Shown one piece after another: positions 36,396 to 43,034 of a stretch of DNA of 64,000 bases (the stretch's first letter is position 1; each line of letters begins with the position of its first letter). Both the position numbers and the translations under genes were made by a program. Below the pieces are notes generated by a model. That model was not told where the DNA came from, searched no databases, and saw nothing but the letters and a program-made list of their open reading frames with translations. The stretch comes from Candidatus Korobacter versatilis (GTDB lineage: Bacteria; Acidobacteriota; Terriglobia; Terriglobales; Acidobacteriaceae): contig JACPNR010000010.1 in NCBI GenBank assembly GCA_016185395.1, positions 1 to 64,000 of the forward strand, read 5' to 3'.

Positions 36396-37697
36396 CTACG
36401 CCGGCTGGGCGGTCTGGGCTTTGCGCGGGAGCATCTCGCCGATGCGCCTGATCTGCGCGCCCACGCCGCGGAGTTTCTCCTCGATGCGCTCGTAGCCCCG
36501 GTCGATGTGGTAGACGCGGTCGATGATGGTCTCGCCATCGGCGACGAGCGCGGCCAGCACCAGCGACGCCGAAGCGCGCAGGTCGGAGGCGAGCACGGCG
36601 GCGGCGGAGAGTTGCGTTTTTCCGCGGACGATGGCGCGGCGGCCTTCGATCTTGATGTTCGCGCCCATGCGCACCATCTCCTGCGCGTGCATGAAGCGGT
36701 TCTCGAAAATGTTCTCGGTGATGACCGAGGTTCCGTCGGCCTGCGTGGCGAGCGCCATGAACTGCGCCTGCATGTCGGTGGGGAAGCCGGGGTACTCCTC
36801 GGTGGAGACGTCGGCGGCGGTGAGCGGGTTATCGCCCATCACGCGAATGGAATCGCCGTTCTGCTTCACCTTGACGCCGCACTCGTTGAGCTTCTGCACC
36901 AGTGCGCCGAGGTGCTGCGGATCGCATCCGGAGATGATTAGGTCGCCTCCGGTCATGGCTGCCGCGATGAGGAACGTCCCGGCCTCGATGCGGTCGGGGA
37001 TGATGCGATGCTTCGCGCCGTGCAGCTTCGCGACGCCGTGGATTTTGAGCGTCGAGGTCCCGACGCCTTCGATCTTCGCTCCCATCTTTATTAATAGGTT
37101 TGCGAGGTCGGCGACTTCCGGCTCGCGCGCGCAGTTCTCCATGACGGTCTCGCCGTCGCCGAGGACGGCGGCCATGAGCAGGTCCTCGGTTCCGGTGACG
37201 GTGATCTTGTCGAAGAGGATATGTCCGCCCTTGAGGCGGTCGGCCTTGGCCTCGATGTAGCCGTGCTCCTGGGTGACGACGGCGCCGAGTTTTTCCAGTC
37301 CCTTGATGTGGAGGTCGATGGGGCGCGCGCCGATGGCGCAGCCGCCGGGGAGGGAGACGCGGGCCGCGCCGGTGCGCGCGACCAGCGGGCCAAGGACGAG
37401 TGTGGAAGCGCGCATCGTCTTGACCAGGTCGTAGGTGGCTTCGGCGCGGTCGAGCTTGCGGCAGTTGATGGTGGTGCGGTGGTGGGCGCGTCCGTAGCCG
37501 AGCTCGACCTCGGCGCCCATCGCGACCAGCAGCTTGCGCTCGGTCTCGATGTCGCGGACGTCAGGGATGTTCTCGAGGGTGACGGTCTCGTCGGTGAGCA
37601 GCGCGGCCGCCATGCAGGGCAGGGCGGAGTTTTTTGCGCCCGAGATGCGCACCGTGCCGACCAGCGGATTGCCACCGCGGATTACAAACTTATCCAC
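36396..37697 (-). CDS. murA: UDP-N-acetylglucosamine 1-carboxyvinyltransferase
   Basis: A 433-residue MurA, which transfers enolpyruvate from PEP to UDP-GlcNAc in the first committed step of peptidoglycan synthesis in the cytoplasm. N-terminal [20 protein letters not shown] includes the catalytic-site Lys22; the active-site loop [14 protein letters not shown] has Cys120, so the enzyme should be sensitive to fosfomycin, unlike the Asp variants. [13 protein letters not shown] and [19 protein letters not shown] are further signatures. It is about 330 nt from murQ on the same strand. Confidence 0.97.
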
Positions 37698-38031: not shown

Positions 38032-38949
38032 TTAAAGGCTGATTGCGCGGCGAACATTTCCCTTCGCGGCCTTGAGGCGCTTTTCGGCCTCGGCTTTCTT
38101 GGCGCCGGTCTTCAGCATGATGAGCGCGATGGGGACGTTCTTCCCGCTCGCCTTCAGCGCCTTGACCGCACGCTCGCGGTCGCACTCGGCGGCGGCCTGC
38201 AGGATGGCGATGCCCCGCTCCATCAGCTTCTCGTTCTTCAGGTGGACGTTGACCATCAGGTTGCCGAAGACGTAGCCGAGGCGCGCCATCGCGCCCGTCG
38301 TCAGCATGTTGAGGATCATCTTCTGCGCGGTGCCGGCCTTCATGCGGGTGGAGCCGGTGACGACCTCGGGGCCGACCTCGGCGACGATGGCGATCTCGGC
38401 GGCGCGCTCGAGTGGCGAGCCGGGCGAGCAGACTAGGGCGACGGTCTTCGCGCCTTGCGCGCGCGCGTACTCGATGGCGGCGACGGTGTAGGGAGTGCGG
38501 CCGCTGGCGGCGATGCCGCAGACGACGTCGCCCTTCTTTGGTTTCTTTTTGGCGAGGTCGCGCTCGCCGTCCTTGCGGGAGTCTTCGTTGTACTCGGCGG
38601 CGGCGATGAGCGCCTTGGCGCCGCCGGCCATGACGGCTTGCACGGCGGTGGGCGGCAGGTTGAAGGTGGGCGGGATCTCGGAGGCGTCGAGCGCGGCGAT
38701 GCGCCCGGAGGTGCCGGCGCCGACGTAGATGAGGCGGCCGCCCTCGGCGATGGCCCTGGCGATGACTTCTATGGCGCGAGCAATATTCGGCAGTTGATGC
38801 GAGATGGCGGGGATGACGTTCTTGTCGGCGTCATTGATGATGCGCGCGATCTGCTCGGGCGAGAGCGTGTCGAGCATCTCGCTCGAGAGGTTGCGCTGCT
38901 CGGTGGAGAGCGCGCGCAGGTCGAGGGTGGGCCTAGAAGCGGTCATCAT
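38032..38949 (-). CDS. murQ: N-acetylmuramic acid 6-phosphate etherase
   Basis: A 305-residue MurQ, which cleaves the lactyl ether of MurNAc 6-phosphate to GlcNAc 6-phosphate and D-lactate in cell-wall recycling. SIS-domain sugar-phosphate motif VGAGTSGRIAALDASEIPP, GIAASGRTPYTVAA, and TGSTRMKAGTAQKMILNMLT, diagnostic of MurQ. A C-terminal UBA-like helical segment is present. The start overlaps the upstream lipoprotein stop by one base (TAATG). It is the last gene of a tightly coupled three-gene run with the lipoprotein and the serine hydrolase. The kinase producing MurNAc-6-P was not found here. Confidence 0.96.
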   Translation of the reverse strand: MMTASRPTLDLRALSTEQRNLSSEMLDTLSPEQIARIINDADKNVIPAISHQLPNIARAIEVIARAIAEGGRLIYVGAGTSGRIAALDASEIPPTFNLPPTAVQAVMAGGAKALIAAAEYNEDSRKDGERDLAKKKPKKGDVVCGIAASGRTPYTVAAIEYARAQGAKTVALVCSPGSPLERAAEIAIVAEVGPEVVTGSTRMKAGTAQKMILNMLTTGAMARLGYVFGNLMVNVHLKNEKLMERGIAILQAAAECDRERAVKALKASGKNVPIALIMLKTGAKKAEAEKRLKAAKGNVRRAISL

Positions 38950-39416
38950 TATTGCCGATCATAGGTGGCGATCTTCCCGTTCTCGTCGGTGCCGACCAGA
39001 TGCATGCCGTTCGAGGAGACGACGTAGGTGACGTTGGTCGTGTACTCCTCCTTCTTGCCGCGGTCGAGGAAATGCACGACGCGCTCCTGAGTGTAGAGCG
39101 TGGGGCCGGCGAGGCGCGCGCTGGTGTAGAGCTCGCTGTTGCCGCTGTCCTCGGCCTTGAGCTCCTTGCCGAACGGGTAATGGCGCTCCAAGAGTGGCGC
39201 GTCGCCGGTCTCGAAGTTGGAGATGGAATCGCGCAGGTCTACGCCGTCGGCAGTCAGCTTGATCTCAAGATACGACTCGCCCTTGAGGTTGAAGCCCATC
39301 GGCATGGTGGTGTGGTCGCGGTCGAGATGCCAGCGTCCCTCGACGGTGCGCTTGGCGCAGGCCAACAGCGTGGCGAGCAGGCAGACGAGCGCAAGCGCAG
39401 GAGCGGCGCGTTTCAT
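38949..39416 (-). CDS. Hypothetical lipoprotein in the murQ operon
   Basis: A 155-residue protein with a lipoprotein signal peptide (lipobox LLAC, Cys20 in LLATLLACAKR). The mature part is beta-rich (VEGRWHLDRDHTTMPM, SYLEIKLTADGVDLRDSISN) and resembles a small lipocalin-like barrel, without a named family. Its start codon overlaps the upstream serine hydrolase stop (ATGA) and its stop overlaps the murQ start, implying stoichiometric coupling with wall recycling. It may bind muropeptides at the envelope. Confidence 0.8.
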   Translation of the reverse strand: MKRAAPALALVCLLATLLACAKRTVEGRWHLDRDHTTMPMGFNLKGESYLEIKLTADGVDLRDSISNFETGDAPLLERHYPFGKELKAEDSGNSELYTSARLAGPTLYTQERVVHFLDRGKKEEYTTNVTYVVSSNGMHLVGTDENGKIATYDRQ

Positions 39417-40555
39417 GGCAAAGACTGTACAACAGCGTCGTGAAAAGCGGGACGGACTTGCTTGATCTGTTGCGTGCTGCGGTCGGGCCAGGTCCGATTG
39501 GTGAGCAGGGTGACGGAGAGCTGGCGCTCGGGGTCGCACCAGAGCGAGGCGCCGGTGTAGCCAAGGTGTCCGTAGGACTGCGCGGAAAAGCATTTGCCGG
39601 ATTGCGAGGGCGAGGACGGTGTGTCCCAGCCGAGGGCGCGCGAGGTCCCGGCGGGGGAGGCTTGGCGCGCGCTGAAGAGGGCGATGGTCTCGGGGCGGAA
39701 TACGGGCGCGCCGCCCGTGAGCATGCAGTGGGCGAAGCGGGCGACGTCCTCGGCAGGGGCGAAGAGGCCGGCGTGTCCGGCGACGCCTCCGAGGACGGAC
39801 GCGTTCTCGTCGTGGACCTCGCCCTGGATGATGCGCTGGCGAAAATCCTTGTCGTCCACCGTGGGCGGGATCTCGGAGCGCAGCGCGGCGGGTGGGCGGA
39901 AGCCGGTGCGCGCCATGGCGAGCGGGTGGAAGATCTCGCGGGCGGAGAATGCGTCCGGTGACTCACCGGCGAGGCGTTCGAGGGCGACGCCGAGGATGAT
40001 GAAGCCGATGTCGCTGTATTCGGCGTGCGTGCCGGGGTCGTGCGCGAGCGGCGTGGTGAAGGCTGCCTGCAGGAGTTCGTCGTGAGTGCGGGCGTTTTCG
40101 AAAAGCTTTTCGTAGGCGGGCAGGCCGGAAGAGTGGGTGAGGAGATGGCTGAGGGTGACGTTGTGGCGGCGGGACGCCGCCACACCAGCCGGCGGGACGC
40201 CGGTGCTACTCTCGGCGGCGAATTCGGGGACGATGCTGACTGCCGGCGCGTCGAGGTCGAGGAGGCCGCGCTCGTAGAGTTGCATCGCCATCGCGGTGGT
40301 GGCGACGACTTTCGTGACGGAAGCGAGGTCGTAGATGGTGTCCGCCTGGACGCGGGGCGCGGAGGCGTCGTAGGTGAACCGCCCGAGTCCTTTCAGGGCG
40401 ACGAGCTTCCCCTGGTGCGTGATGGCGACGGCGGCGCCGGGGAAGGCGTGGGCGGCGATGGCTTCGTCGAGGACCTTCCAGGCGCGGGCGAAGCGCCGGT
40501 CCTGGTCGTGGTGGGCTGCGACCAGCGCGGCGGGAGATGGATGGGCGGTGGTCAG
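39413..40555 (-). CDS. Serine hydrolase of the beta-lactamase/AmiE family (no ATG start)
   Basis: About 380 residues of a class C-like serine hydrolase. The catalytic SxxK is Ser79-Val-Thr-Lys82 (YDLASVTKVVATTAMAMQ); the second motif is YSDIGF, and the third region GHLGYTGASLW. No signal peptide is visible, so cytoplasmic. No ATG, GTG or TTG exists in frame between the conserved FPGAAVAITHQG strand and the upstream stop. CTG 40555, with AAAAGG upstream, is the best candidate start. The family includes AmiE, the muramoyl-alanine amidase of the B. subtilis murQ operon. Its stop overlaps the lipoprotein ATG. Confidence 0.85.
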   Translation of the reverse strand: MTTAHPSPAALVAAHHDQDRRFARAWKVLDEAIAAHAFPGAAVAITHQGKLVALKGLGRFTYDASAPRVQADTIYDLASVTKVVATTAMAMQLYERGLLDLDAPAVSIVPEFAAESSTGVPPAGVAASRRHNVTLSHLLTHSSGLPAYEKLFENARTHDELLQAAFTTPLAHDPGTHAEYSDIGFIILGVALERLAGESPDAFSAREIFHPLAMARTGFRPPAALRSEIPPTVDDKDFRQRIIQGEVHDENASVLGGVAGHAGLFAPAEDVARFAHCMLTGGAPVFRPETIALFSARQASPAGTSRALGWDTPSSPSQSGKCFSAQSYGHLGYTGASLWCDPERQLSVTLLTNRTWPDRSTQQIKQVRPAFHDAVVQSLP

Positions 40556-40631
40556 AGGGAGCGCCTTTTCGCACTCGGCTTGTTGGAGTTGCCGAAGTCG
40601 CGTTATAACACAGCGTAGAACCTGCCCTCAA

Positions 40632-43034
40632 TTGTCCCGCCGGCACAAGGCGCTGCACACGATCCTCCTGCTGCTGGCGGCGACGTTCGCCTGCGCGAGC
40701 CCGCAGAATAAAGACATCAAGGAAGAAGCTCCGAAAGAGATCAAGTCGGAACGGCTTGCGGCAGTGGACCGCGTGATTCAGGACGCGATACGCGCCGGGC
40801 AGATACCGGGCGCGGTCGTGTTAGTCGGGCACAACGGCGAGATCATCCATCGGCGGGCGTTCGGCGCGAAGACGTTCGGGCCGCGCGCGGCGCAGGCGAT
40901 GACGCTCGACACCGTGTTCGACATGGCGTCGCTGACGAAGTCCATGGCGACGGCGCCCTCGGTGATGCGGCTGGTGGAGCAGGGCCAGATACGGCTGAAC
41001 GACCCGATCAGCCGGTACATCCCGGAATGCGCGGCGAACGGCAAGGACGACATCACCATCCGGCAACTGCTCACGCATTATTCCGGGCTGGCGCCCGACC
41101 TCGACCTGCGGCCGCAGTGGGCGGGTTACGACACGGCCATCAAGCTGGCGTGCGCCGAGACGCTGCAGGACCCGCCGGGGACGAAGTTCGTGTATAGCGA
41201 CATCAATTTCATCCTGCTGGGCGAGATGGTCGCGCGCGTCGCGAAGATGCCGCTGCCGCAATACGCGGACGCGCATTTCTTCCAGCCGCTGCGCATGACG
41301 CACACGCGCTTTCTGCCGCCGGCGGAGTGGCGCGGGCGCATCGCGCCGACGGAGTTCGATAGCGTGCTGCTGCGCGGCGGGGTGAACGATCCCACGTCGC
41401 GCCGCATGGGCGGCGTGGCGGGACACGCGGGCCTGTTCTCGACCGCCGACGATATGGCGCGTTACGCGCAGGCGCTGCTCGACAAAAAGGTGTTGAGCCC
41501 GGCCATCATCGAGAAGATGACCACGCCGCAGCAGCCGGCGACCGGCACGGTGCTGCGCGGCTTGGGCTGGGACATCGATTCGCAATGGTCGTCGAACCGC
41601 GGCGAGCTGCTGCCTATCGGGAGCTACGGCCACACAGGGTACGCCGGGACGAGCCTGTGGATCGATCCTTACAGCAAGACGTACGTCATCCTGCTGACGA
41701 ACCGGATCGATCCGAAGATGGGGAACTACGTGCCCTCGCTGCGGACGCGGGTGGCGAACGAGGTGGCGCTGGGCCTGAAGCTGGAAGCGAAAGAGGAAGA
41801 CCGCGCGCGGGTGGCGGCCATCACCGGCTACAACGAAACGATGACGGCGGTGCGGCGCCTCGCCGACCGCAACGGCAGGGTGAAGCTCGGCGTGGATGTG
41901 CTGCAGCAGACGGGGTTCTCTGCGCTGCATTCCGACCGGAAGAACGCGCACGGCATGAACGTCGCGGTGTTCACCAACCAGACGGGGCTCGATTCGAACG
42001 GGCAGCGCACGGTGGACGTGATCGCGCATGCCGGCGGCGTGAAGCTGGCGGCGATATTCAGTCCGGAGCACGGGCTGTTCGGCAACGTCGACACGGAAGA
42101 AGTCCCGGACACGACCGACGCCGCGACGGGCGCGGCCGTCTACAGCCTGTATCGCAAGGGACGCCGCGGGCGCGTGCCGCCGGAGCTGTTGAAGGACATC
42201 GACGCCATCGTCTTCGACATACAGGACGCGGGCGCGCGCTTCTACAGCTACGAGGTCACGCTCGGCTACGTGATGGAAGCGGCGGCGCAGGCGGGAGTGG
42301 AGGTGGTGGTGCTCGACCGTCCGAATCCGGTGACGGGAAGTTTTGTGCAAGGGCCGATGGCGCAGGGCGGCCCGCAGCGGCTCATCAATTATGTGGACGT
42401 GCCGGTGCGCCACGGCATGACGATGGGCGAGCTGGCGCAGATGTACAACGGCGAGCGCGGGCTCGGCGCGAAGCTGACGGTCGTCCCGATGCAAGGCTGG
42501 CAGCGCGGTGATTGGTTCGACGCGACCGGCGCGGTGTGGGTGGACCCCTCGCCGAACCTGCGCAGCGTGAACCAGGCCACGCTGTATCCGGGAGTGGCGC
42601 TGGTGGAGGGGACGAACGTCTCGGTCGGACGCGGGACGAACACTCCGTTCGAAGTGCTGGGCGCGACGTGGATCAGGTCACGGGAGCTGGCGGCCTACAT
42701 GAACGCGCGGCAGATCCCAGGCGTGCGCTTCGTCGCGGTGGACTTCACGCCGAGCGACGCGAAGTACAAGGGCGAGCTGTGCCACGGCGTGAACCTGATC
42801 GTGACGCAGCGCAACGCGCTGGATTCTCCGGAACTCGGCATCGAGCTGGCGGCGGCGTTAAGGAAGCTGTATCCGAAAGATTGGAAGCCGGAGAAGATGA
42901 CGGAGGTCCTGGTGAACCAGGGCGTGTACGACGCGGTGGCGCGCGGGGAGGGTCCGCAGCGCATCGCGGAAGACTGGCGCGACGCGCTGGAAGAGTTCAT
43001 GAAGGTGCGCGCGAAGTACCTGATCTACAAATGA
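40632..43034 (+). CDS. Exported fusion: serine hydrolase (AmiE/beta-lactamase) + NamZ exo-muramidase (DUF1343)
   Basis: An 800-residue two-domain protein from TTG 40632. Lipoprotein-type signal (HTILLLLAATFACAS, Cys21). Residues about 38-395 form a serine hydrolase with SxxK Ser100-Leu-Thr-Lys103 (FDMASLTKSMATAPS), YSDINF and GHTGYAGTSLW. Residues about 412-800 form a DUF1343/NamZ domain: VAVFTNQTGLDSNG, FSPEHGLFGN, FDIQDAGARFYSYE, LDRPNPVTG. NamZ releases MurNAc from non-reducing ends; AmiE removes the peptide. In B. subtilis these are separate genes beside murQ. Divergent from the murQ operon with 76 nt between starts. Confidence 0.92.
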   Translation: MSRRHKALHTILLLLAATFACASPQNKDIKEEAPKEIKSERLAAVDRVIQDAIRAGQIPGAVVLVGHNGEIIHRRAFGAKTFGPRAAQAMTLDTVFDMASLTKSMATAPSVMRLVEQGQIRLNDPISRYIPECAANGKDDITIRQLLTHYSGLAPDLDLRPQWAGYDTAIKLACAETLQDPPGTKFVYSDINFILLGEMVARVAKMPLPQYADAHFFQPLRMTHTRFLPPAEWRGRIAPTEFDSVLLRGGVNDPTSRRMGGVAGHAGLFSTADDMARYAQALLDKKVLSPAIIEKMTTPQQPATGTVLRGLGWDIDSQWSSNRGELLPIGSYGHTGYAGTSLWIDPYSKTYVILLTNRIDPKMGNYVPSLRTRVANEVALGLKLEAKEEDRARVAAITGYNETMTAVRRLADRNGRVKLGVDVLQQTGFSALHSDRKNAHGMNVAVFTNQTGLDSNGQRTVDVIAHAGGVKLAAIFSPEHGLFGNVDTEEVPDTTDAATGAAVYSLYRKGRRGRVPPELLKDIDAIVFDIQDAGARFYSYEVTLGYVMEAAAQAGVEVVVLDRPNPVTGSFVQGPMAQGGPQRLINYVDVPVRHGMTMGELAQMYNGERGLGAKLTVVPMQGWQRGDWFDATGAVWVDPSPNLRSVNQATLYPGVALVEGTNVSVGRGTNTPFEVLGATWIRSRELAAYMNARQIPGVRFVAVDFTPSDAKYKGELCHGVNLIVTQRNALDSPELGIELAAALRKLYPKDWKPEKMTEVLVNQGVYDAVARGEGPQRIAEDWRDALEEFMKVRAKYLIYK

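Follow-up and report, generated by a model that had tools for sequence, protein, structure and literature searches.

Within a 64,000-nucleotide stretch of Candidatus Korobacter versatilis DNA (the window), a gene that joins an S12 (beta-lactamase-fold) hydrolase to a NamZ domain lies divergent from an operon containing the gene for MurQ, the N-acetylmuramic acid (MurNAc) 6-phosphate etherase. We consider it probable that this locus provides the outer steps of a MurNAc salvage route, together with its final inner step, that depends neither on a phosphotransferase system (PTS) nor on AmpG. The features of the locus are as follows.

40632..43034, + strand: S12-NamZ fusion gene, candidate exported amidase/exo-muramidase; TTG start, single open frame, PF00144, PF07075 and PF20732
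40632..40697, + strand: Sec signal peptide with a signal peptidase I-like A-C-A↓S site and no lipobox (sequence; ortholog survey)
40764..41714, + strand: S12/beta-lactamase-fold domain with S100-x-x-K103, Y188-S-D and H334-T-G (Pfam, alignment, Foldseek)
41961..42569, + strand: NamZ_N domain with the invariant E479 in (S/A)PE-G, D529 (QD) and DRP (Pfam, alignment)
42582..43028, + strand: NamZ_C domain (Pfam)
40556..40631, no strand: divergent intergenic region of 76 nt between the starts of the serine hydrolase and the fusion
39413..40555, - strand: predicted cytoplasmic S12 serine hydrolase (SH) with an SVTK motif and a probable CTG start; PF00144, E 1e-63
38949..39416, - strand: small putative lipoprotein of 155 residues (LLAC) between SH and MurQ
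38032..38949, - strand: MurQ; TIGR00274, 347.5 bits vs a cut-off of 302
36396..37697, - strand: MurA, the conserved neighbour downstream of MurQ (TIGR01072; synteny)

The S12-NamZ fusion

A reading made from the letters alone (the sequence-only reading) had described a complete S12 hydrolase and a complete DUF1343/NamZ domain in one gene, and the Pfam search agrees. Beta-lactamase (PF00144) spans residues 45-361 of the protein (E 9e-72), followed by NamZ_N (PF07075) at residues 444-646 (E 4e-74, model positions 1-202 of 203) and NamZ_C (PF20732) at residues 651-799 (E 5e-46, model positions 2-152 of 152), both over cut-off. The S12 half carries SLTK, YSD and HTG motifs, and in an alignment of 14 orthologs the serine, the lysine, YSD and HTG are invariant; in the NamZ half, the PE-G, QD and DRP motifs vary little or not at all across the orthologs. 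An AlphaFold2 model built on 33 sequences (mean predicted local distance difference test score 82.4) has two folded domains. In Foldseek the NamZ half resembles 4k05 and 4jja (template-modelling scores of 0.91 and 0.85 by target length), while the S12 half matches EstG, esterases, the R61 DD-peptidase and FmtA-like proteins. A frameshift or misassembly separating the two domains was looked for and rejected, because the orthologs share the frame and most relatives carry NamZ in frames of about 800 residues. A PADLOC search for defence systems gave no match.

The N-terminus of the protein ends in ATFACA↓SPQ, which fits the A-x-A site of signal peptidase I and not a lipobox (T-F-A-C). Among the fusion orthologs a hydrophobic N-terminus is found in 92 of 96 and a lipobox pattern in 2 of 96. 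From this site and this survey the product is judged to be probably a soluble periplasmic enzyme; the lipoprotein-like signal ascribed to it earlier does not hold, and anchoring as a lipoprotein was rejected on the same grounds.

The architecture is not a novelty of this genome, a possibility that was rejected since it was listed in 2008 and is standard in the taxon. The 2008 survey of serine proteases tabulated an S12-DUF1343 protein (YP_439122.1) of matching domain content and order, but assigned nothing past 'cell wall biosynthesis' (PMC2605481). NamZ occurs in 53 of the 61 related genomes; within the family, its frame is almost always about 800 residues long or longer. Named genomes bearing the fusion belong to the Terriglobales, Bryobacterales, Pyrinomonadaceae, Luteitalea, Nitrospirae and Syntrophaceae, to Pseudomonas panipatensis and to a Bacillota metagenome-assembled genome; plasmids of Burkholderia and Cupriavidus also bear it, in B. 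savannae under a NamZ-domain annotation. Judged from these genomes, the fused form is the norm both in this family and among other Acidobacteriota. What is new is the fusion of an importer to the hydrolases in relatives, whereas the window gene itself has an architecture already on record.

Importer and kinase

The sequence-only reading had counted a MurNAc importer and a kinase as missing and had proposed looking for a MurK-type kinase or a PTS elsewhere in the genome. Both are indeed absent from the locus, but candidates for both are present on another contig. The source genome (G000) was searched family by family; its assembly is 90% complete, and absences are therefore provisional. A sodium:solute symporter gene (SSF; PF00474; G000:C13:44069-45502, equivalent to L049:6067-7503, - strand) is divergent from the gene for a MurK-like BadF-type kinase (PF01869; L049:7605-8555, + strand), a linkage also seen in the Tannerella-type pathway. 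Among solved structures, the best match to this kinase is 8zo3, a MurNAc/GlcNAc kinase (GlcNAc, N-acetylglucosamine). No PTS EIIC was found in this assembly and AmpG (TIGR00901) gave no match in it; both were rejected as MurNAc importers.

An ortholog of the symporter occurs in 52 of the 61 relatives, and NamZ and SSF co-occur as 48/5/3/5 over the 61 genomes (Fisher p 0.002, uncorrected for phylogeny and with a weak paralog in G024 counted as absent). The two are also neighbours. SSF lies immediately upstream of the fusion gene at L040, L085, L086, L088, L143, L145, L152, L156 and L157, and L097 and L144 have an SSF-MurQ-fusion-GH3 operon (GH3, glycoside hydrolase family 3). A complete operon on one strand, MurK-MurQ-SSF-GH3-S12NamZ, is found at L190, and at L209 MurK, MurQ, SSF and GH3 are divergent from the fusion. 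The Bacillota locus L202 brings together MurQ, GH3-S12, S12-NamZ, SSF and MurK, and a single stretch of L048 holds MurA, MurQ, GH3-S12, NamZ, SSF and MurK.

Two variants of this arrangement were observed. The GH3-S12 fusion of L048 (6215-9265, - strand; NagZ-AmiE type) is divergent from a single-domain NamZ gene. In L047, L158, L159, L168 and L174 a distant, different SSF-like gene of about 600-640 residues lies between MurQ and the fusion, which it adjoins in L159.

A proposed route for MurNAc salvage

From the gene content, domains, active-site motifs, linkage and fusions described here we infer the substrates, activities, locations and order of steps of the following route. An exported GH3 hexosaminidase, encoded in operons with the fusion in relatives, would take off the alternating GlcNAc. 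On the outer side of the inner membrane, the S12 half would strip the stem peptide from the non-reducing terminal MurNAc of wall glycan fragments, after which the NamZ half would set this MurNAc free. The SSF sodium symporter would import it, the MurK-like BadF-type kinase would convert it to MurNAc-6-phosphate, and MurQ would turn this into GlcNAc-6-phosphate and D-lactate. The fusions GH3-S12, S12-NamZ and hydrolases-importer link successive steps of this scheme. The earlier proposal of an exported amidase and exo-muramidase acting with a cytoplasmic MurQ thus gains support from domains, signal peptides and the family-wide neighbourhood.

Several observations weigh against the scheme. For the S12 half, the closest named NCBIfam model is PBP4B, far under its cut-off, and catalysis in the S12 family is diverse. 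For the kinase, the best NCBIfam model is the GlcNAc kinase NagK, again under cut-off; the sugar pocket of the kinase has small residues before a W, a feature shared with both NagK and 8zo3 by which MurNAc and GlcNAc are not separable. The symporter and kinase genes are unlinked to NamZ in the source genome (contig C13), and 46 of the 123 NamZ loci compared have no SSF or MurQ in the stretch fetched, in part because contigs are short.

The S12 half could instead be a D,D-carboxypeptidase, endopeptidase or esterase of the PBP4B/EstG kind that trims stem peptides, with NamZ acting on strands stripped by other amidases. EstG, esterases and the R61 DD-peptidase are indeed what Foldseek ranks for this half, PBP4B is its closest named model, and E. 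coli PBP4B (YfeW), which is 29% identical to the S12 domain of the fusion, is encoded in a murQ-murP operon. We nevertheless hold this to be unlikely, as S12 domains are fused to the glycosidases acting before and after the cleavage of the MurNAc-peptide bond (GH3-S12 in L048, S12-NamZ in the window). AmiE is a member of the S12/beta-lactamase family. The B. subtilis enzyme, encoded with NagZ and YbbC (NamZ), has been reported to be a MurNAc-L-Ala amidase (PMC5061867). That the symporter and kinase serve GlcNAc, with MurNAc handled only as anhydro-MurNAc via NagZ, AnmK and MurQ, would accord with the NagK match and with the NagZ-AnmK gene pair of this genome, but is improbable given that SSF is fused to or immediately upstream of a NamZ gene, whose expected product is MurNAc, and shares operons with MurQ, and that 8zo3, the best match to the kinase among solved structures, is a MurNAc/GlcNAc kinase.

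An importer fused to its hydrolases

In some relatives SSF, S12 and NamZ are encoded in one frame, of 1,412 residues in G034, 1,373 in G031 and at least 1,258 in G020. Most NamZ frames in a 60-genome sample of the genus of G034 are 1,340-1,700 residues long, and 40 of the 40 loci fetched from it, as short stretches, have SSF-S12-NamZ as a single in-frame gene. A MurK-like gene stands beside the triple fusion in 19 of these 40, scored as divergent in 16; in the other 3 it is on the opposite strand and the stop-to-stop frames overlap. In the 38 proteins measured, the junction has a K/R-rich stub, whose net charge averages +3.2, then a single hydrophobic segment, and after this a stretch that is near-neutral, averaging -0.2. 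This pattern fits a former signal peptide that serves as an extra transmembrane helix and places the enzymes outside. A second SSF-S12-NamZ gene, L060:1036-5190, occurs in another family (G052). Its SSF is a different paralog, too dissimilar to be found with the first, and its S12 domain falls elsewhere in the S12 tree; the architecture therefore has two origins.

Tentatively, SSF-S12-NamZ may be a one-protein 'hydrolyse-and-import' machine, in which two exo-enzymes are tethered where a sodium-MurNAc symporter opens to the outside and the MurNAc that they release enters the cell directly, out of reach of neighbours. It would have been retained across a whole acidobacterial genus and have arisen a second time, with a different SSF paralog, in another family; the window genome has the unfused set. 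Somewhat doubtful, though a real contender, is a polyprotein from which signal peptidase, cutting after the last hydrophobic segment, would free a soluble S12-NamZ, the fusion serving only to hold importer and enzyme in a fixed proportion. This last segment looks like the signal peptide of the S12-NamZ protein that stands alone, and A-x-A or AQ-like sites often come after it; however, the fused frame has been retained genus-wide rather than as two overlapping genes, and the K/R-rich stub before the segment and the near-neutral stretch after it also suit a membrane anchor. A literature search of incomplete coverage gave nothing relevant on an importer-hydrolase fusion or on MurNAc salvage in Acidobacteria. 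As a natural importer-hydrolase fusion, the triple-domain protein lends itself to the study of how freed sugars are withheld from neighbours.

Relation to known recycling systems

The best reading by analogy is that the route combines Bacillus-like exolytic steps with Tannerella-like import, kinase and etherase steps. The B. subtilis cluster, ordered murQ-murR-murP-amiE-nagZ-ybbC(namZ) (PMC5061867), likewise places exolytic NagZ, AmiE and NamZ outside and MurQ inside. Here, however, one protein combines the candidate amidase with NamZ, a PTS was not found in the 90% complete assembly, and a cytoplasmic S12 paralog lies beside MurQ. Tannerella forsythia has a murT-murK-murQ operon whose MurT is a sodium symporter (PMC5790795); this operon provides a sodium symporter, a MurNAc kinase and MurQ without a PTS (PMC5790795, PMC10465942). 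The corresponding substrates in the present genome are predicted ones; the source genome spreads the set over several loci, whereas related genera fuse the symporter to exo-hydrolases. In E. coli murQ-murP-yfeW (PBP4B), MurQ is also clustered with an S12 protein, but the importer is a PTS and the S12 proteins are 28-29% identical. Acidobacteriota are abundant soil bacteria, and the comparison offers for them a complete and testable route of MurNAc salvage without PTS or AmpG, and from gene fusion it puts forward a substrate for a symporter of wide distribution.

The divergent operon and an inner recycling branch

The genes for SH, the putative lipoprotein and MurQ form an overlapping operon divergent from the fusion, as the sequence-only reading had it, with overlaps of 4 nt (SH/lipoprotein) and 1 nt (lipoprotein/MurQ) and family matches for SH (PF00144) and MurQ (TIGR00274). 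MurQ is 49% identical to its E. coli counterpart. The putative lipoprotein has no family match in Pfam or NCBIfam and no homolog among the neighbourhoods compared; it was found only in the window. The divergent layout of fusion and SH-MurQ-MurA recurs throughout the family, and of the loci examined in relatives roughly one in two has MurQ beside the fusion. The intergenic length of 76 nt, also given earlier, is correct provided that SH begins at the CTG at 40555, upstream of SVTK, where no ATG, GTG or TTG lies in frame. Within it, GTTATAAC at 40602-40609 is a probable -10 element of the SH-MurQ operon; most orthologs have TGNTATAA upstream of SH.

SH lacks a signal peptide, and a hydrophobic N-terminus is missing from 10 of the 11 SH orthologs that could be tested. 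In a tree of S12 domains, all those of S12-NamZ proteins form one clade and the MurQ-linked SH proteins another, with the GH3-S12 fusion of L048 basal in the latter. By this tree the window holds two old S12 paralogs, one predicted to be exported and the other cytoplasmic.

The genome likely has a second, inner recycling branch. It encodes Mpl and a NagZ-AnmK gene pair (L062:5301-9041, on C13 of G000), after which comes an oligopeptide-binding protein of the SBP_bac_5 type. In terms of AmpG/AmpD recycling, NagZ, AnmK and Mpl are thus present, while neither AmpG nor AmpD (Amidase_2, PF01510) was matched in the 90% complete assembly. SH may act as a cytoplasmic amidase in place of AmpD. The content of G012, where NamZ and the SSF ortholog are absent while SH-MurQ-MurA and AnmK are retained, fits a role of SH in the inner branch.

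Translation of SH probably begins at CTG (40553-40555, - strand). An in-frame ATG, GTG or TTG upstream of SVTK is lacking in the window gene and in 7 of 32 orthologs, while other orthologs have a TTG near the aligned place; the start alternates between TTG and CTG (loci bearing on this are L031, L035, L036, L037, L043, L052, L054, L063, L066, L133 and L134). A gene call based on ATG (40291) loses the catalytic SVTK. In another family of the order, the SH ortholog L051:7812-9233 has an apparent signal peptide that family-level orthologs lack, suggesting a change of compartment.

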